DNA of 64,000 nt from Polyporus tsugae (taxonomy: Eukaryota > Basidiomycota > Agaricomycetes > Polyporales > Polyporaceae), in the NCBI GenBank assembly GCA_024305745.1, contig JAHRBS010000003.1, positions 2,976,001 through 3,040,000 of the forward strand, in the 5' to 3' direction. The position numbers and the translations under genes are program-made. Positions 53,748 to 64,000 of the stretch are shown here, in pieces; positions within the stretch are counted from its first letter, which is position 1, and every line of letters starts with the position of its first letter. The notes under the pieces were generated by a model. The model was given only the letters and a program-made list of their open reading frames with translations, did no database searches and had not been told where the DNA came from.

Positions 53748-54149
53748 GCATGTACCAGCGGTCCATTTGCGCGAACCGGCCACATTGCTTGACAAGATGG
53801 ACATGAGATACAAAACCATGGTGATTTGGAACAATAAAGTAGGGTTATGGGAACATCTCAGCCCTCTATCCCTAGGGATGAAATAACCCCTAGGGTAGGG
53901 TTTAGCCCTCCTAAGCGACCGGCTAAACAGCACTAAGCGCCTGCCTAGCCAGCGCTAAGCGCTTGGCTCCTAAGCGAGGGACCATTAGCGCCAGCACCGT
54001 ACAAAGAGAATAGTAAGTCGGATGTGATAAGGGAGTAAGGAGTCCGGTATTAGCAACTGAGAATCGGAGTGGTAAGTGGACTTACATCCACATTGATGGA
54101 GTGAGCAAGGAGGATATAAAGAGGATAAGGGTGGGAAGATAGAGGAGAG

Positions 54150-55010
54150 CGGGGGGCAGAGCAGGGGTATCCGTCCTGGACGGACAGCCGAGTATAGGAC
54201 CACGCACATGTGGTGGGGCAAGGGCAGTCCCGCAGGTGTCCGTCCAGGACGGACAGGTCCGGTGTTAGACCTGGCTCATATTGCAATGATGTGCCAACCT
54301 GCATGGTCATTACATAGTACTTATCCCTTTTGCTTCGTTCAATGCCACTATTGAGAATAAAGGAGAGCAGGGGGCAGAGCAGGGGTATCCGTCCTGGACG
54401 GACAGCCGAGTATAGGACCACGCACATGTGGTGGGGCAAGGGCAGTCCCGCAGGTGTCCGTCCAGGACGGACAGGTCCGGTGTTAGACCTGGCTCATATT
54501 GCAATGATGTGCCAACCTGCATGGTCATTACATAGTACTTATCCCTTTTGCTTCGTTCAATGCCACTATTGAGAATAAAGGAGAGCAGGGGGCAGAGCAG
54601 GGGTATCCGTCCTGGACGGACAGCCGAGTATAGGACCACGCACATGTGGTGGGGCAAGGGCAGTCCCGCAGGTGTCCGTCCAGGACGGACAGGTCCGGTG
54701 TTAGACCTGGCTCATATTGCAATGATGTGCCAACCTGCATGGTCATTACATAGTACTTATCCCTTTTGCTTCGTTCAATGCCACTATTGAGAATAAAGGA
54801 GAGCAGGGGGCAGAGCAGGGGTATCCGTCCTGGACGGACAGCCGAGTATAGGACCACGCACATGTGGTGGGGCAAGGGCAGTCCCGCAGGTGTCCGTCCA
54901 GGACGGACAGGTCCGGTGTTAGACCTGGCTCATATTGCAATGATGTGCCAACTGGCCTGCATGGTCATTACAAAGCACCTATCTCTTTTATTTCGTTCAA
55001 TGCCCCTATT
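54150..55010. repeat. 218-bp tandem array, ~4 copies, with internal palindromes
   Basis: The marker TCCGTCCTGGACGGA occurs at 54170, 54388, 54606 and 54824, a spacing of exactly 218 bp, and the copies are almost identical. Each unit also carries GTCCGTCCAGGACGGAC about 80 bp later. The fourth unit ends with small differences (TGGCC insertion near 54953). The first copy's left flank is different. At 55287-55309 the stretch AATAGTGGCATTGAACGAAG is the reverse complement of the unit's CTTCGTTCAATGCCACTATT, so part of the unit also exists inverted nearby. Confidence 0.95.
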
Positions 55011-55509: not shown

Positions 55510-56216
55510 TCACGGTGCCGCTGCTGTGTCCCAGTAGACACCGTGCCTGACAACAGTGGTCACTGCAGAGAAAACAGTTAGTAACTCTATACCGCGAACA
55601 GATCGGGTTGATACTCACACTCGTTGCGACTCGTGATGTCTTCTTTGAGGTGCGCCAAAAGACGCGCCTTCGCCTCCGTGACCTCCGCATCCGCCATGTG
55701 CAGCTTGCCCTCCGTCCTCTGGTTCATCTCCTCGGCGTACTCAGCGGCGGCTTCCTCGGCCTTTCCGCGTGCTTGCAAGTACGCGTGCATCGCTGCGCAG
55801 AAGTTGTCTTGCGTCGCCTTCATCCGCCTGACCCGCGTAATGATGGAGTATTCCTCACCAAACTCCCGCAGATCCCGAAGGCCAGGCTGCTCGTGATACG
55901 GCAGGCTGGCGAGGTGGCTGTACAGCGTGCTGAACTCGCTATCCACATTCACCAACGGAGGCAGCGCGCGCACTAGCATTAGGAACGCCGACATCGTGTA
56001 CGACGCGTTCAAACTAGCAGGCTGCAGCGTCGCGCCTGTGATGGGGGTCGATTGTGTAAGTGTGGATGGGTGGCGGGAGACAGTCCGGGTGACGTAGTTG
56101 ATGACCTCCTGGTGCACAAAGTCGTCGATGAAGCTCATAGCGGTGAGAATGACAGTGATGCGATGGCTGCTCTCCCAACTTGTGGTCCCTTTATATTCAT
56201 CGCCAGGCGGGCTCAT
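55510..56216 (-). CDS. small helical hypothetical protein in the repeat island
   Basis: Two exons join in phase: about 56216-55619 and 55562-55510 (TGA). The donor is GTGAGT and the intron ends CTAACTGTTTTCTCTGCAG, with a good branch site. The predicted product is 216 aa from ATG 56216; the frame is open 12 codons further up but without ATG. It is mostly alpha-helical with an Ala/Glu-rich C-terminal coiled-coil-like part (RGKAEEAAAEYAEEMNQRTE). Earlier segments are FIDDFVHQEVINYVTRTV and YTMSAFLMLVRALPPLVN. No family recognised. Splice-site quality suggests a real, expressed gene between repeats. Confidence 0.5.
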
Positions 56217-56323
56217 CCATGCGGCCAGCACCTCCACGGCCTTCCTTTTCACTTCACCGTCCGTCCCATAAGTCCTCCCTTCTTGCCGGGGTCTCCATCA
56301 ACACTCCTTAGTACATTCAAGTC

Positions 56324-56360
56324 CTATCTCTATAATCCCGGCCCTAAGCCCCTTAGGGCC
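56324..56360. repeat. CTATCTCTATAAT-palindrome module, copy 2
   Basis: CTATCTCTATAATCCCG followed by GGCCCTAAG-CCC-CTTAGGGCC (9-bp arms). It abuts directly the CCTTGCGCCAA palindrome and lacks the T-run of the other copies. Confidence 0.8.
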
Positions 56361-56862
56361 TTGCGCCAATTGGCGCAAGGGCTTTCACGCCTCGTTCTAC
56401 TTAACAACTGCCTGGCGCAAGGCACTTTCTAGATAGCCCTGGACTATGTCTACGTCCTCCAATAAGTTCCATGTCCATACATGTGCTCGTCGCTGAGCAA
56501 CGGCCCTTGCGCCAATATTTTCCACCCTTTTTCGGAGTTTTCGTTGGCGCAAGGTCCATTGTGCCACAACCAGGTGGGGCGAGGTGGGACGAGGCGGTAT
56601 GTAGGGTGCCCAAGGACTATGGCTACGCACTGTAGGTAGTTTGAAGGTCATCGCCTTCTTCGTTGTTGCATGCCGGATGTCAAAATCTCAACTACCGCGT
56701 AATATGCCTCAAATCCGTTGGCGCAAGGTCCGTTGTGCAAGATTGAGGTGGGGTGAGGTGGGGCGAGGTGGGTTTCTAGATGCCCCAAGACCATACCTCC
56801 TCGCTCCAGGTGGTTTCAAGGTGCCAGCTATTGTTGTTCCCTCACAATCGACCTTGCGCCAA
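56359..56862. repeat. TTGGCGCAAGG inverted repeats
   Basis: At 56359-56380 CCTTGCGCCAA and its exact inverse TTGGCGCAAGG are fused into a perfect 22-bp palindrome. The same arms recur as 56505-56515 with 56544-56554 (28-nt loop), and as 56718-56728 with 56852-56862 in everted order. A G-rich tract GAGGTGGGGCGAGGTGGG-like accompanies several copies (about 56573, 56748, 57605, 57780). Confidence 0.85.
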
Positions 56863-57247
56863 CAAAGTACCCTGTATCTGTGCTCGGGAAGGGCGTTGCA
56901 AGTATAGTGGGGCCACTTCATAGTTGGCTGAGCTAGAATAAGGTCACACATCAGATGCTTCTAGAGCTCTTCTGAGAACTTCACCATCATCTTTGTTTAG
57001 TGCACCTCCAGTGGTGCTTCTGTCCATCCACCTATAGAGTCTTCAAAAAGTCATTTCGACTTTTTGAGTGGCTGTGCAGCATCAGTCATAGTCATTACAA
57101 TCACTGGTGGCTGACAGCCTGATAAGATAAGACAAGCATTCCTATTATGGAATCCTGGCAGTGTCTATTTTTTCCCACCCTCTCTTGAACCTGAACCACC
57201 ACCATCTATCTGTTATCACCCTACCTGCCTATTCTCTGTTCATCACT

Positions 57248-57637
57248 ATGGCTTCTACTTCAACCTCTACTGGCAGCAAGAAGTGCACCTTCTGTGACAA
57301 CCTCTTCACTGGCCATCCCTCCCATCATTATCGCACCTGCCGTCGCTTCACCTGGAAGATCCCTCACCTTTTTGCAGAGCAAAAGGGTCCCATGATCACT
57401 GTCACTCGCAACAGTGAAGGTGACATCATTTGCAAGTGTGTGTCCAGTAATGGTAAGGTCTGTACTAGGACCTGCATTAGCCGCACCGCCCTGGACAAGC
57501 ACTTGGGCAAAGTCAAGCCCGCCTATCTCTATAATCCTGGCCCTAAGTACTTAGGGCCAGGGTTTTTTCGGTATATGGCTCCTGATGCCACAACGGCCCG
57601 GGGCGATGTGGGGCGAGGTGGATTTTTAGGTGCCTGA
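57248..57637 (+). CDS. small Cys/His-rich ORF, C-terminus made of a repeat
   Basis: 130-codon frame from ATG 57248. The N-terminal half has a zinc-finger-like pattern (KKCTFCDNLF, HPSHHYRTC) and a second Cys cluster (DIICKCVSSNGKVCTRTC, TALDKHLGK). This is reminiscent of DNA-binding modules at the N-terminus of fungal transposon or transcription proteins (inference). From about residue 92 on, the reading runs into the CTATCTCTATAAT-palindrome module and then G-rich repeat DNA, so the natural C-terminus has been replaced or the gene is truncated. Confidence 0.45.
   Translation: MASTSTSTGSKKCTFCDNLFTGHPSHHYRTCRRFTWKIPHLFAEQKGPMITVTRNSEGDIICKCVSSNGKVCTRTCISRTALDKHLGKVKPAYLYNPGPKYLGPGFFRYMAPDATTARGDVGRGGFLGA
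57523..57561. repeat. CTATCTCTATAAT-palindrome module, copy 3
   Basis: CTATCTCTATAAT then a perfect 26-bp palindrome (arms CCTGGCCCTAAGT / ACTTAGGGCCAGG, 57536-57561) directly followed by TTTTTT. The module interrupts the Cys/His-rich ORF. Confidence 0.85.
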
Positions 57638-57939
57638 AGACCATGGGCACCCTTTCTAGGTGTTTGGAAGGCCGTCACTACCTTGGTTTCTGCTCACCAG
57701 CACTTTATTTAAAAAAGAACTACAAAAAATCCTCAAATTGTAGGTGTATCTAGGCTCGTGGGCTACAACAGGCTAGGGCGAGGTGGGGCGAGGTGGGTTT
57801 TAAGGTGTCTAGGGCTGTCCTCTATGACCTCCAAGTAGTTGCTAGTCATTATCTGTGTTGGCTATTGTGTGCCGGCCCTATGAGTAGTGGCTTCTGGTGT
57901 AATATTTTGTGCAATTTAGGGATATATGGCCCGGTGAGC

Positions 57940-58540
57940 TACAATGGGGGAGGGCGAGCTGGGGCGAGGTGGATTTCTGGATGGCTGTGGACTGTGTCTG
58001 TGCGCTGCCCTTTGTTTCGGGGTCATTGCTTTCCTGGTTGGTGCTTGCCGGCTGTTTGATTATCTGCCCACCCTGCATTATCGGCCAAGTGCGCAGCAGC
58101 GTCCAGGGCTGGGGCGAGCTGGGGCGAGGTGGATTTCTGGATGGCCATGGACTGTGTCTGTGCGCTGCCCTTTGTTTCGGGGTCATTGCTTTCCTGGTTG
58201 GTGCTTGCCGGCTGTTTGATTATCTGCCCACCCTGCATTATCGGCCAAGTGCGCAGCAGCGTCCAGGGCTGGGGCGAGCTGGGGCGAGGTGGATTTCTGG
58301 ATGGCCATGGACTGTGTCTGTGCGCTGCCCTTTGTTTCGGGGTCATTGTTTTCCTGGTTGGTGCTTGCCGGCTGTTTGATTATCTGCCCACCCTGCATTA
58401 TCGACCAGGTGCGCAGCAGCGTCCAGGGCCGGGGCGAGCTGGGGCGAGGTGGATTTCTGGATGGCTGTGGACTGTGTCTGTGCGCTGCCCTTTGTTTCGG
58501 GGTCATTGCTTTCCTGGTTGGTGCTTGCCGGCTGTTTGAT
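57940..58540. repeat. 160-bp tandem array, ~4 copies
   Basis: GGATTTCTGG at 57971, 58131, 58291 and 58451 gives a period of exactly 160 bp, with only scattered substitutions between units. Units start with a GGGGCGAGCTGGGGCGAGGT tract. The fourth copy is cut after GGCTGTTTGAT by the hairpin-array element. Open frames of about 90-150 codons across it are repeat artefacts. Confidence 0.95.
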
Positions 58541-59488
58541 TTAAAGGGTGCAAAGTTGGGGGGGATTATGGTTAGACCTAGGTTATGGCCACATGAATCC
58601 CGAAAACCTGCGAGAATGCAGGGCGACTGCAACCTCGCAGCGTTTACACGAGTGCATCAAGCGGGTGACTGCGAGATTGCAGGAGAACTGCGTTCTCGCA
58701 AGGAATGCACATAAGGTGCGAGGTAGCAGGGCAACTGCGTTCTCGCACCCATGTGTGAGATCAACTGCGAGAAAGCAGGGCGACTGCAATCTCGCAGCGT
58801 TTACAGGAATGTGTCCAACGGAAGAGTGCGAGATTGCAGGTGAACTGCATTCTCGCAAGGAACGGACATACGGTGCGAGGTCGCAGGTGAACTGCGTTCT
58901 CGCAATGTTCACGGAGGTAGATATTGTGAATGACTGCGAGAACGCAGGGCATCTGCTATCACGGAGCATTCACGGACATATATAATATATGATTCACTGC
59001 GGGGTAGCAGGTGGCCTGCGTTCCCGCAAGCGACGAGAAGTGTCGATATGGTGCGAGAAAGCAGGGCGACTGCAACCTCGCAGTATACACATGAGTTGAA
59101 ATGGGCGACTGCGAGGATGCAGGAGAACTGCATTCTTGCACGGATGGGTGAGATCGACTGCGAGAACGCAGGGCGACTGCAACCTCGCAGTGTTTACACG
59201 AGTGCATCAAGCGGGTGACTGCGAGGTCGCAGGCGAACGGCGTTCTCGCAACGTTCGCAGAGGCAGACACTGTGAACGATTGCGAGAATGCAGGGCAACT
59301 GTTATCTCGCAGCATTGGTGCGAGGTAGCAGGTGTCCTGCGTTCTCGCAGCAGTTGGATGGGAGAGTACGGTATATGATATGTGCGAGAATGCAGTGAGA
59401 CTGCATCCTCGCAACGTACCGGAACAGGACACGGCGGGCGATGTACGCGACAGAAAACGAGTGCGCCGAGGGTCTTCGGGGGCCTATT
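58541..59488. mobile_element. hairpin-array element, copy 1 (~950 bp)
   Basis: It begins TTAAAGGGTGCAAAGTTGGG and ends near GTGCGCCGAGGGTCTTCGGG; both ends recur in copy 2. Inside are about 15 units of about 33 nt. Each is a near-perfect hairpin of the form TGCGAGAATGCAG, a 4-6 nt loop, then CTGCATTCTCGCA, with covarying stem bases, separated by 15-30 nt of non-palindromic spacer. Representative units start near 58609, 58826, 58934, 59051, 59157, 59318 and 59381. There is no coding capacity. It interrupts the fourth 160-bp unit, so it inserted, or was joined, after that array formed. Confidence 0.75.
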
Positions 59489-60734
59489 ACAGAGGTACAA
59501 AGTAGTGACCCTTTGGGTTATCCTTAGGTTTGGCATAGGTCGAGGGCTAATTTCTGCGCGCACGCACAGGCCCTGCATCTGCGCAGGATTATACAGTGTG
59601 CAAAACACGTCAATGACAGCGCAGAGGCAGTGTCTGTGCGTTTGCGGACATACTGAACGAGGTTGAGGACAACACAAAAGGATGTTTAATTTCGATGTGG
59701 TACGGCTGGTGTGGGGAGGCAAAATGCGCATAGGCACTTGACGTGCATGTGCGCTGCTGCTGAAACTGGAGGACACCTTTGTATGAACCCAGGAGGTGGG
59801 TGTATCCATCTACAGATTGGCGTGAATGCACAGGGGTGTGCCTTTGCGCCAGAATATGGTATAAGTATTGTATAGGATAAAGATGTATATTGTATATGAA
59901 AGGACAGGATGTATTGTCATGTGGAATGAACACCTGAAGAATGCATATACTGCATAGTGAATTCAACATAGGTCATATATTATACATGTATGCAATCCAT
60001 ACAATGTTATTATAAACTATGTGACACAGATGATATGTATGTGATAGCAGATATCCTCATGTTGACACAAATAAAAGGTGATGGTTGAGTACTCTACCGA
60101 TGGATAACAACACTGAATAAAAAAGGACTGTATGACAGATTGCGACATACAATAAGCAGGAGTGGAACATATGACCAGACGTTAATTGCAAACCGCTCGA
60201 AGTACCACAACGATGTAGTTGGTGAAAACTGCAAGTGGCAGTCGGAAAGAATGGTGAATACATAGAGGAGTATGCTCTATGTTTTGTAGAGGAAAGAACT
60301 ATGTATGGAAGAGATCTCAGTGCTGACTTTTGTGGCATAGAAAGGTGTAGGATGTGGTGGTTCTCTGTCCTGAACAAGTTGTAAGTTGTAGGCTGTGGGC
60401 AGTGTGGGAGAGAGATTGAAGTGGAGGAAGGAGGTAAGGTAAGCAGAAGTAGTTCTAGAAGTGGAAGCAGAGCAGACATCGGTATGCAACATGTTGTTGC
60501 GTCCGGTCTAGTGATGCTGGAGGAAGGGTCGGATGATGTCGTGCTGGATAGTGTAAGGGAGCGTGTTATTGGACGTCGCTTGAGGGGCTCGATGGATCTA
60601 TCAGTTGGATAGCAGCTTCTGAGCTTCGGGGGTGGTTAAGCGAATGCGCCGGTGCCGTAATGCAGGCACGGTTCACACAAGGGCCCGAGGGATATTTAGA
60701 CTGTTGCGAAGCTGCGGGAAGCCTGTGACCGATC
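59489..60734. other. AT-rich spacer in the repeat island
   Basis: No gene recognised. 59860-60120 is markedly AT-rich. A single CTGCGCGCACGCACAGG...CTGCGCAGG hairpin-like patch lies near 59555. Confidence 0.5.
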
Positions 60735-61520
60735 ATGATGCGCCCCGACTCTACAGCCTCACGCGCCAGCACTGACAGCGACGAGACAGTGCGCCCGACT
60801 TTGCGAGGGTCACTAGCATCCACGTGGAGCGACAGCTCCTCTGAAGATGCTGAGAGGGCTGATGCGAAGTTAGCACGGGAACGGAGTGAGGATTGGAGGG
60901 GTGGTTGCACTTCTGTGGAATCTGTTGTGGATCCCTCGCTGCCGCACATCCATCTTACGAACGAGTACAGCATCATGTTCCCGATGTCTGAGCGGCACAT
61001 TGACTGGGAGATCGAGCACGGGGGGCACTTTGCGGAGCATCGTCTTCCAGGGCGAACATGCACGCTTGACAAGGTGAGATCTGGACGATGTTTGTTCAGC
61101 AGTGTGTCCCTCTGATTATTATACTGCGCGCATTGTTAGCTCCCTTCACGGCGACCAGCTCCTCGAGGTCCACTACCGCCGCTGCCACCTGTCCAGCAAC
61201 CCGCGCCACCATGGCGTATCCGCGAGGGACCATATCCTACTCGGCGCGCGACAGCAGTGCTCGACACGCGCCCAGCTCTCCTCGCTGTTCCGTCAGCAGC
61301 TTATGGCTCACGCCATGCTGCAGTCACATCGCACTGTCCCACCTGTGCTGAGCGGCACGCTTACCGCACCGTGCGCCCTCCTGCTGCCACTATTTCCATG
61401 TGTGTGCCATGTCGTCCTCCGCTGCCGCCGCCTCCGCCTCCGCCTCCTGCAACGCCTTGGTACTACCTTCCCAACGTCCCGACTGAGGGAGGGATGGATG
61501 ATACTGCGAACCTGTTGTGA
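60735..61520 (+). CDS. hypothetical Pro-rich protein with CxxC pairs
   Basis: Exons 60735-61073 and 61140-61520 (TGA) join in phase 0, giving 239 aa. The first half is Ser/Thr/Asp-rich (SRASTDSDETVRPTL), then more ordered (HIHLTNEYSIMFPMSERHID, WEIEHGGHFAEHRLPG). The second half is Pro-rich, with two CxxC motifs, CPTC and CVPC, about 28 residues apart (HCPTCAERHAYRTV and MCVPCRPP). These could form a small zinc site (inference). It ends with PATPWYYLPNVPTEGGMDD. Two adjacent ATGs (60735, 60738) can start it. No family recognised. Confidence 0.5.
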
Positions 61521-61820
61521 GCATGCATTGTGATCAATTTGCAGATGTCGGTTTCTTACTGGTTGACAGCTCTGCACCATCAAAGGTGTTGGCCTGTGTG
61601 GGCGCGGTGGAGAAGAAAATGGGAGACAATGTATGCTGTTTCCAGTAGGGAGAGATTGTTGTGACAAGGTGGTGGTACGGTTAATATATGGAATGGATAG
61701 TACCGCGTGAAGGCCCAATGAGTGCGTGTGCGGAGCTATACTTGCGCGCGGGCACGGGATGTGCGTTCGTGCGACTCAATATCTGTGCGTGGACGCGTGG
61801 ACATGTCCGCGAAGGCACAT

Positions 61821-62508
61821 TTAAAGGGTGCAAAGTTGGGGATTATGATTAGACTGTGGTTATGGCCACCGAATTCCTGAAAACCTGCAAGAACGCAGGG
61901 CATCTGCTATCACGGAGCATCCATAGAAATATATAACATACAATTGACTGCGGGGAAGCAGGCGGCCTGCGTTCCCGCAAGCGACCGGAAGTGTCGAGAC
62001 GGTGCGAGAAAGCAGGGCGACTGCAACCTCGCAGTATACACATGAGTTGAAATGGGCGACTGCGAGGATGCAGGAGAACTGCGTTCTCGCACGGATGGGT
62101 GAGATCGACTGCGAGAACGCAGGGCGACTGCAACCTCGCAGTGGTTGTATGAGTGCGTGAAACGGATGAGTGCGAGAATGCAGGTGAACTGCATTCTCGC
62201 AAAGAACGGACATATGGTGCGAGGTCGCAGGCGAACTGCGTTCTCGCAACAATCGCAGAGGCAGACACTGTGGATGATTGCGAGAACGCAGGACAACTGC
62301 TATCTCGCAGCATTCACGAACGTGGATAGTGGCATTGGTGCGAGGTAGCAGGTGTCCTGCGTTCTCGCAGGAGTTGGATGGGAAAGTGAGGTATATGATA
62401 TGTGCGAGAATGCAGTGAGACTGCATCCTCGCAACGTACGGGAACAGAACACAGCGGGCGACGTACGCGACAGAAAACGAGTGCGCCGAGGGTCTTTGGG
62501 GGCTATGA
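61821..62508. mobile_element. hairpin-array element, copy 2 (~690 bp)
   Basis: Same ends as copy 1 (TTAAAGGGTGCAAAGTTGGG at 61821; GTGCGCCGAGGGTCTTTGGG at the right). It holds about 10 hairpin units in the same order as the right-hand part of copy 1 (for example GCGAGGATGCAGGAGAACTG at about 62062). Copy 1 carries about five extra units, so unit number changes while the ends stay fixed. Confidence 0.75.
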
Positions 62509-62654
62509 CACGCGCTGCACGACGAATCAGGCAGGTGGAGTGGCTGGGGTCCAGGTGATCAGCGAAGGAAAATTTCGGGAGCGCAACGTTGCGCTCCTCC
62601 ATCACCATCTATTCTCGCACATCGACGGCCTTTACACACCGATACAACGTCGAC

Positions 62655-64000
62655 ATGTCTGGAGCAAGCAAGAGGCGAGGGAAAGGGAAGGATATGGAGC
62701 TACGGGAGGACAACGCGGAGACGACGGATGGGCAGGAACAGACGCAGGGCGACGACGGGGTACGTCGACGATGATGGAGGCGATGATGACAATTGGGATG
62801 AGCTAATGACGGCGGACATTGAACAGGACGAGTCGGCGGGACTGTCCGAACTGGACGCCCAAATGGAGGCGTTGAAGAAGACAATGGAAGCGAAGAGGAA
62901 AGCGAAAGCGCAGGTGGGTACCCAGAATCTGATGGTGCGACGCGTAACGTCTGATTGGATTTGTGAAAGCAGGGAGCCGGGGCGGCGGCGCAAGGGTCGG
63001 CCGGAGGTCCGTTGGCCGGGAAGACGGAGACGAAGGGTGCGGCTGCGAAGGTGGGTGTTGTGGCAGGGCTTGTGGACGGCGATGGGCTGATGAGGGGACG
63101 TGTTCAGTCGAACCGCGTGCCGACGACGGTAGCTGCGAAGGGGAGAAGGAGCGCGGTGAGTGGCTCACAGGGTTATGGCGAGGGGGATGCTGACGGTGGG
63201 GCGCGTTTCCAGAAGGGGAAGGCTCCGAAGGCGCCGAAGGTTACAGTGAAGGTGGAGGACCTGGATCTGGACAAGGTGAATCTCACGACTCCTGACCAGG
63301 TGGAGCTGGACGCCGCGATCATCGGGTTCGTGCGGGTGAGGATCGTGTTCCCCGACCCGACGGTGAAGCAGGAGTGGACGGTGGTGAACGAGCGGGCGAT
63401 CAACAAGGCGCACTTGGCGAGCATCAAGCAGAGCCTGAGGTTGCGGAAGGTGGACTGGGAGCACCCGATGATCGCGATGGTGAACGGGGCGCACATCAAC
63501 CCGGCGTGCGTCTCGCTGTCACCTGTGCCGATGAAGGACCTGAAGGAGATCTCGTGGACGTGTCCTGCGGCGGAGCGGCGGATCCACTTCCTGAGCGGGA
63601 ACCATCGTCAGGAGGCGATGCAAGAGCTGCACCAGGAGTTCGTCGAGAAGGAGTCTGGGTATCAGCGGCAACTGGAGTTGTACCAGGCGCAGCAGGCAGC
63701 GGGGGCGCAGGGGGAGCTGAACATGCAGGGGGAAATGGTGGACACGTTGGGGACGAGGCTTGAGGAGCAAATTGAGGACCTGACGAAGGCGGAGGAAGAG
63801 ATGGCGCTGTGGACGACGACGCTGTACGACTCAAGTGAGTGGTGAAGTGTGTGTGAGAGAGGAATGAAGTGTGTGCGCTGACGAGGGTGATACAGCGAAG
63901 CTGCAGCGGAAGCCTGCGCTTGTTGCGCAGCTTGCGTCGAACGAAGCGCGGCCTGCGAAGGCGGAGGACGTGCAGGAGCGGGCGCAGATTATGTTTTGGA
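62655..64000 (+). CDS. large protein with ParB-like 'GNHR' domain, 3' end outside window
   Basis: Model: 62655-62759, 62827-62913, 62973-63834, 63896-64000 and beyond. The first exon junctions are uncertain, because the frame through intron 1 (DDDNWDELMTADIEQDESAG) also looks protein-like. After a Lys/Ala/Gly-rich start comes VKVEDLDLDKVNLTTPDQVE. Then INKAHLASIKQSLRLRKVDW, HPMIAMVNGAHINPACVSLS and IHFLSGNHRQEAMQELHQEF follow in order. The order 'IN..H...I..S...', 'P(I/L)..', 'L.G.HR..A' is that of ParB/Srx-fold domains, where GxHR sits at the nucleotide-binding site (family knowledge; assignment is inference). A coiled region rich in Gln/Glu follows. It may be a lineage-specific Agaricomycete family. 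Confidence 0.6.

Follow-up and report, generated by a model that had tools for sequence, protein, structure and literature searches.

Which kind of element gives rise to a row of similar hairpins, set apart by different spacers, in the subtelomeric DNA of a fungus? This question was raised by a 948-bp stretch within the window, i.e. the 64,000 nt of DNA analysed here (C17:2976001–3040000 of 3053868). The initial annotation had regarded this stretch as an element of its own. Searching the whole genome (43.2 Mb, 18 contigs), we found instead that it runs from 58539 to approximately 59485 and is not self-contained, but is one truncated representative of a large element of the subtelomeres, here called F1. 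Its hairpins resemble protein-binding sites of a mobile element of chromosome ends more than they resemble an array of the RNA-structure or CRISPR-like kind. A role as putative protein sites is suggested by the uniformity of the palindromes, by their location in non-coding gaps and by their belonging to a multi-gene element which is joined through one fixed end. Judged from sequence comparison, there is about an even chance that the array consists of double-stranded dyads serving as putative protein sites of F1, and that F1 is a one-ended element attaching to chromosome ends.

Number, geometry and distribution of the palindromic units

Copy A of F1 (58539–59485, plus strand, the right edge being good to a few bases) has the fixed left terminus ATTTAAAGGG and consists of a 70-bp leader (58539–58608, plus strand), 15 dyads and a tail. 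The dyads form its terminal palindrome cluster at 58609–59413, to which no strand is assigned. Thus, the number of about 15 hairpins given by the initial annotation was right, but the unit core is 31 nt long and not 33 nt: a 13-nt arm TGCGAGRWNGCAG, a 5-nt loop and a 13-nt inverted arm, or TGCGAGRWNGCAG-N5-CTGCNWYCTCGCA with few departures. A 33-nt unit with a 7-nt loop had no match in the genome even at three mismatches. Copy B, the longest copy of F1 found (61819–64000 in the window, plus strand), starts further downstream and has a terminal cluster of ten dyads at 61886–62433, again without assigned strand. Together these are 25 units in the window, which agrees with the approximately 25 previously counted.

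When one mismatch was permitted, the half-site pattern occurred 49 times in the window compared to 2.09 expected instances, and 49 was reached in none of 100 shuffles. The exact dyad occurs 202 times genome-wide, a reversed control pattern not once. All of the 197 occurrences that fall into the stretches examined are located downstream of an F1 left end and inside the same copy, the remaining five lying outside these stretches, and at least one exact dyad is present in 15 of 20 F1 copies. The geometry is strict. When eight chromosome ends were scanned with loops of 3–10 nt permitted and near-identical copies counted, 210 of 211 units (55 distinct ones) had a loop of 5 nt, and not one of 361 exact half-sites at these ends, counted in the same way, stood alone. 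The asymmetric centres of the dyads are seen in both arm orders.

The sequences between the units are unequal and partly duplicated: unit starts are 38–64 bp apart in the cluster of copy A, and part of the spacers is repeated within a 157-bp super-unit (1.9 copies). These repeated, unequal spacers do not bear out the proposed likeness to CRISPR, and no cas-like Pfam match was obtained among the proteins scanned. Viral contigs contained neither the exact dyad nor a relative of an exon of F1 gene iv (see below). Six stretches of prokaryote genomes have one exact dyad each, which we took as chance palindromes. In the literature on fungal subtelomeres, represented by titles and abstract openings of the matches listed and including few subscription papers, such palindromes are not mentioned.

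Genes of F1 and location of the palindromes

The initial annotation had found no encoded protein. This holds for the truncated copy A, whereas longer F1 copies carry genes. According to approximate predictions by a simple script, copy B contains gene i (62728–64000, plus strand, start approximate and running out of the window), gene ii (at about 1.5–4.7 kb) and two pieces, iii and iv, all reading telomere-ward. Gene i has one database match, a hypothetical protein of Ganoderma leucocontextum (68% over 80% of the query, and 74% in a second comparison), and an exon of gene iv has four unnamed protein matches (60–66%). A diverged paralogue on C13, found in tblastn pieces of 30–33% identity, suggests that the predicted pieces iii and iv belong to a single gene. 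Immediately after the gap between them lies an exon that aligned to this paralogue with a score of 100, whereas 2000 shuffles reached at most 45; BLASTP of the same pair gave no output. Substitutions in one exon of gene i relative to four other copies fell on third codon positions in 3 of 3, 3 of 3, 3 of 5 and 1 of 1 cases, numbers too small to prove selection. The predicted introns, the TTAGGG telomeres and the single match of gene i in Ganoderma fit a fungal origin of F1.

Pfam gave nothing above cut-off in selected F1 ORFs on both strands, and neither solved structures nor NCBIfam gave a significant match. The window ORF of gene i has a sub-threshold similarity to ddrB-ParB at 62967–63842 (E = 0.033, 14.8 bits at a cut-off of 27.6), for which the Ganoderma homologue showed no counterpart up to E = 1; we regard this ParB likeness as a weak lead only. 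Structure predictions for two proteins were of low confidence (mean pLDDT 38 and 36). Limited scans, comprising the listed RVT_1 matches and Pfam searches of selected ORFs, found no reverse transcriptase (RT), integrase or transposase in F1, and no helicase match in the F1 ORFs scanned. None of the RVT_1 matches listed from the genome (150 of 242 candidates were scored) lies inside an F1 copy; even the longest of these copies may be truncated. One is located in the stack at C7R beyond F1, where a YLDD motif is found on the minus strand, outside F1. Three RVT_1 matches that were inspected appeared LINE-like by eye; two of these three stretches contain masked N.

Five palindrome clusters are spread over the whole 15.9 kb of copy B, all of them in non-coding gaps: before gene i, between i and ii, before iii/iv, in the iii/iv gap and after iii/iv. 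The iii/iv gap starts with GTAAGT and reads, by eye, as an intron of about 430 nt. At the corresponding gap the paralogue on C13 has unrelated palindromes with the core TCCGCGCGGA. In this putative intron (locus L054, 1174–1477) 25-bp palindromic repeats lie within a 24-nt perfect inverted repeat, an arrangement that is MITE-like by eye.

Conservation of the units

The units are better conserved than their surroundings. Among eight F1 copies, 7 of 300 fixed stem columns vary compared to 41 of 340 spacer columns (P = 1.5e-6); variation affects 9 of 90 columns at positions 7–9 and 2 of 75 loop columns. Copy B was omitted from this count because its array differs; when it is added, the values become 18 of 300 for the stem and 66 of 340 for the spacers. 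Gene conversion may also have produced such a pattern.

This touches the alternative that the palindromes are functionless, selfish or recombinational sequence of a satellite or MITE-like kind, which multiplies in non-coding gaps and is homogenised by gene conversion. The 157-bp super-unit testifies to local duplication, the location in gaps and the MITE-like paralogue array on C13 would be as expected, and gene conversion could account for the low divergence of the stems. However, the dyads are confined to F1 (197 of 202 in the copies examined) instead of being dispersed through the genome; moreover, the spacer within the dyad is fixed, lone exact half-sites are absent, and the sequences between units drift while the stems do not. 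Hence, we consider this explanation rather unlikely, although it survives better than the other alternatives.

Stem pairing

Compensatory changes at the variable stem bases had been proposed as a sign of selection or gene conversion on structure, with a covariation analysis as the appropriate check. We carried out such an analysis on 44 aligned units from copies A and B, which comprise 40 distinct rows, by comparison with shuffles that ignore relatedness among units. Paired cells amount to 88.5%, compared to 90.3% in the shuffles (497 of 500 at least as high), and the covariation score is 0.082 compared to 0.102 (490 of 500 at least as high). At positions 7–9, the 46 distinct arm pairs form 52 Watson–Crick pairs where 67.5 are expected after shuffling of arms (P(<=) 0.0023), or 76 compared to 89.4 if G-U is counted. 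This deficit is found in the terminal cluster taken by itself (27 pairs compared to 40.1, P 0.001) and as a tendency in clusters 2–5 (26 compared to 31.9, P(<=) 0.06). The variable positions thus pair less than shuffled arms do, and the compensatory changes could not be confirmed. A single double change, A-U to G-C at column 5, occurs in 2 of the 40 rows, which, judged from their position, are two copies of a single unit; G-C at column 7 is present in four rows.

The arms are, in part, asymmetric. The dinucleotide AA is present in exactly one arm of 37 of 46 distinct pairs (22.9 expected), and of 27 of 28 in the terminal cluster. As a general rule this fails in clusters 2–5 (12 of 20, 10.05 expected), and because it is absent there, the asymmetry may perhaps reflect shared ancestry.

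Judged by these sequences, there is constraint or gene conversion on the units, not visibly by way of compensatory pairing; of the earlier statement the conservation stands and the covariation does not. As compensatory covariation is lacking, selection on a folded strand is less well supported than the conservation of dyads in double-stranded form. This bears on a further alternative, namely that the units function as hairpins, either of RNA or of extruded DNA, for instance as packaging, termination or silencing signals, and that selection keeps the fold. The 13-nt arms, the fixed 5-nt loop, the high proportion of paired cells, the loop conservation between copies and the double change at column 5 are in line with a fold, but pairing at the variable positions and the covariation score below shuffled expectation speak against it, as do the asymmetric centres in both arm orders and the result of an Rfam search, which gave nothing above gathering score in 56000–64000. 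We rank this alternative second and hold it to be unlikely. The same region, including two F1 left ends, contained no hammerhead ribozyme up to E = 1. Sub-threshold Rfam matches to mir-4650 (47.3 bits, gathering score 80.7) and mir-4877 (28.8 bits, gathering score 100) sit on dyad pairs at 62276–62373 and were read as chance products of inverted repeats.

Fixed spacing, the lack of lone half-sites, both arm orders, the lack of compensatory change and a family-specific sequence favour double-stranded dyads as putative protein sites.

Left ends, joins and orientation of F1

With the 984-bp stretch as query, at least 20 F1 left ends were found. The terminus is exact in 20 out of 20, and the adjoining DNA differs at every join; two pairs of flanks share sequence, yet the shared part does not end at the join in both members. 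All 20 left ends point to the nearest contig end, none is reversed, and 15 are located within 45 kb of it. The other five lie at 71 kb (C11), at 113 and 119 kb (C14) and, two on C1, at about 680 kb (up to 681 kb). These latter two are F1 fragments near 4.98 Mb, beside the ends of other repeat families (L017, L020), and perhaps stem from an ancient fusion of chromosomes or from a join made in the assembly.

F1 adjoins ordinary, non-telomeric sequence, and TTAGGG directly precedes the left join in none of 20 cases. At the two joins for which a relative shows the undisturbed sequence, and to which the comparison with native sequence is confined, F1 and target overlap by 2 nt (AT) and 3 nt (ATT). 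The latter is copy A, whose leader overlaps the interrupted 160-bp repeat. Of the native distal sequence, those pieces that were looked for by exact match are absent from the stretch examined beyond these two joins. On C11 and C8 one and the same F1/F2 junction is found behind different F1 flanks, as if a composite had moved with the F1 end as its boundary. As to the surroundings, a 218-bp tandem repeat occupies window positions 54139–55010 and a 160-bp tandem repeat 57952–58541; copy A breaks the latter array in the middle of a unit.

Right ends and capping by telomere repeats

Copy B extends past the end of the window and meets telomere repeats at about C17:3053737, a total of approximately 15.9 kb. 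The right ends vary: eight other copies depart from copy B at approximately 692, 742, 813, 1774, 4352, 6472, 11663 and 14680. Their identity to copy B is 97–99% in the four longest and 92–97% in three shorter copies; copy A, which ends at about 59485 where element F2 starts, is 81% identical. Four F1 copies run directly into TTAGGG, after about 4.6 kb (C1L), 12.0 kb (C17L), 15.1 kb (C5L) and 15.9 kb (C17R, copy B). At C3R the F1 end bears GTTAGGGT and is followed by another element. At two further loci (L008, L013) F1 copies are truncated into short TTAGGG tracts, after which another repeat starts with AGGAGCGC.

Another alternative is an immobile F1, with subtelomeres that merely swapped blocks through ectopic recombination or through break-induced replication. 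The four copies matching copy B over the greatest length are subtelomeric and 97–99% identical to it, and capping of truncated ends by telomere repeats is ordinary healing. Nevertheless, a copied block should bring its flank along, yet in 20 copies the terminus is exact and the DNA next to it is different each time; the overlap of 2–3 nt at two joins and the F1/F2 junction behind two different flanks are further points against this alternative, which appears improbable to us. Least probable of all is an F1 that belongs to the conventional DNA transposons with two ends (such as KDZ or CACTA) and has lost its right ends through terminal deletions. Subterminal repeats beside a fixed terminus are typical of such transposons. 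However, the copies compared have no common right terminus, 0 of 20 left ends are reversed, dyad clusters extend along the whole 15.9 kb, a transposase domain is absent among the scanned F1 ORFs, and at the two sites for which the native sequence is known, those parts of it that were tested do not reappear past the copy.

A possible mode of attachment

If F1 is a one-ended element with protein-bound dyads, the following course of events can be imagined. F1 would attach by its fixed end to chromosome ends that are broken or eroded, overlapping them by 2–3 nt as observed at two sites. The 3' end of the chromosome would prime the attachment on a template whose own 3' end is the complement of ATTTAAAGGG, and this template might be copied by an activity supplied in trans. 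The far end would become truncated, and telomere repeats or a further element of this kind would cap it. A protein, perhaps encoded by the element, may bind the dyads for synapsis or for the control of chromatin or expression. We infer the mechanism of attachment and the role of the palindromes in this indirect way because limited scans found neither an RT nor another mobility enzyme in F1.

Several observations count against this explanation. The genes of F1 are antisense to the template it requires, the conservation of the loops (2 of 75 columns vary) is not demanded by a pure half-site model, five of 20 copies lie 71–681 kb from a contig end, and the limited scans detected no RT, integrase or transposase. 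If it is true, a fungus with TTAGGG telomeres also rebuilds its chromosome ends by capturing one-ended elements, the palindromes provide a sequence handle on the protein involved, and a connection of chromosome-end repair with mobile elements and with fast-changing subtelomeres becomes directly testable.

Comparison with known telomeric elements

Terminons resemble F1 in being large, multi-gene elements of chromosome ends with one fixed end, truncated by telomeric repeats and stacked head-to-tail (PMC6431247). They and other endonuclease-deficient Penelope-like elements possess an RT as well as hammerhead motifs and become attached to telomeric G-repeats via complementary telomeric repeats (PMC6431247), whereas in F1 limited scans found neither RT nor hammerhead, and F1 joins non-telomeric sequence with the 2–3 nt overlap at two sites. 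Of the terminon-like traits, F1 thus has the uniform orientation (20 of 20) together with truncation by TTAGGG in four copies, and lacks the attachment via complementary telomeric repeats.

The MoTeR and FoTeR elements of ascomycetes share with F1 the fungal host, the location at chromosome ends, a uniform orientation and truncated copies. They possess an RT with endonuclease, telomeric repeats at the 3' junction and a 5' end directed toward the chromosome terminus, whereas the predicted genes of F1 read telomere-ward and the scanned F1 ORFs yielded no RT domain. The HeT-A element of Drosophila lacks an RT of its own, and its gag is encoded in the sense of the RNA intermediate. F1 differs in that its genes are antisense to the intermediate our model needs and in its TTAGGG caps. 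Successive one-way additions to chromosome ends are a feature which F1 may share with the HeT-A/TART arrays of Drosophila telomeres (PMC5537684). Blocks of subtelomeric RecQ or telomere-linked helicases in fungi are likewise multi-copy genes beside telomeres (PMC7473861), but F1 has its own terminus and palindromes, and no helicase match was found in the ORFs scanned. The telomeric elements compared here (terminons, MoTeR, FoTeR) are retrotransposons, and those described in detail encode an RT. F1 is placed in none of the compared families, be it terminons, MoTeR/FoTeR or the subtelomeric helicase type.

F2 and other neighbouring families

Element F2 (59486–61818, plus strand) has the left terminus ATTACAGAGGTACAAAG and directly follows copy A where the latter is cut off. 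By eye, it agrees with F1 at 14 of its first 20 bases. Four F2 dyads, without assigned strand, lie at 59554–59850 (near 59554, 59620, 59725 and 59818), with the half-site GCG(C/T)RNNNGCA; one of the eight arms lacks the leading G. Their inner gap is 7, 7, 7 and 8 nt by eye, and 7 nt for F1 counted likewise, so that the F2 dyads appear to have nearly the F1 geometry with a changed half-site. Matches with a loop of 5 nt number 3, compared to 0.26 in mononucleotide shuffles (maximum 2). The predicted start of an F2 gene (60735–61520, plus strand) encodes an N-terminus which resembles, by eye, the predicted start of F1 gene iii/iv.

At the eight F1-bearing chromosome ends, all left ends of F2 and of the families F4, F5 and F6 found by exact pattern are directed telomere-ward and none is reversed. 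This uniform orientation, shared with F1, as well as the variable right ends and the joins, fits successive one-way additions to chromosome ends. More tentatively, and with less than an even chance, polypore subtelomeres might in general be built by related one-ended elements (F1, F2 and others), which would attach by 2–4 nt of pairing to broken ends, carry telomere-ward genes without an RT and possess family-specific palindromes that co-diverge with a putative element-encoded binding protein.

F4, another telomere-ward family, has left ends at window positions 57525 and 56326. CCT precedes its boundary in 7 out of 7 copies, and a palindrome GGCCCTAAG...CTTAGGGCC near its end contains telomere-like sequence. 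An ORF with an OrsD domain (E = 2.6e-13) was found in the F4 stack on C10, so F4 may belong to the known subtelomeric helicase type. A left end of F5 is located at window position 53846, with GGGT before it in the copies compared; at C3R, the F5 left end comes after a leftover telomeric repeat.
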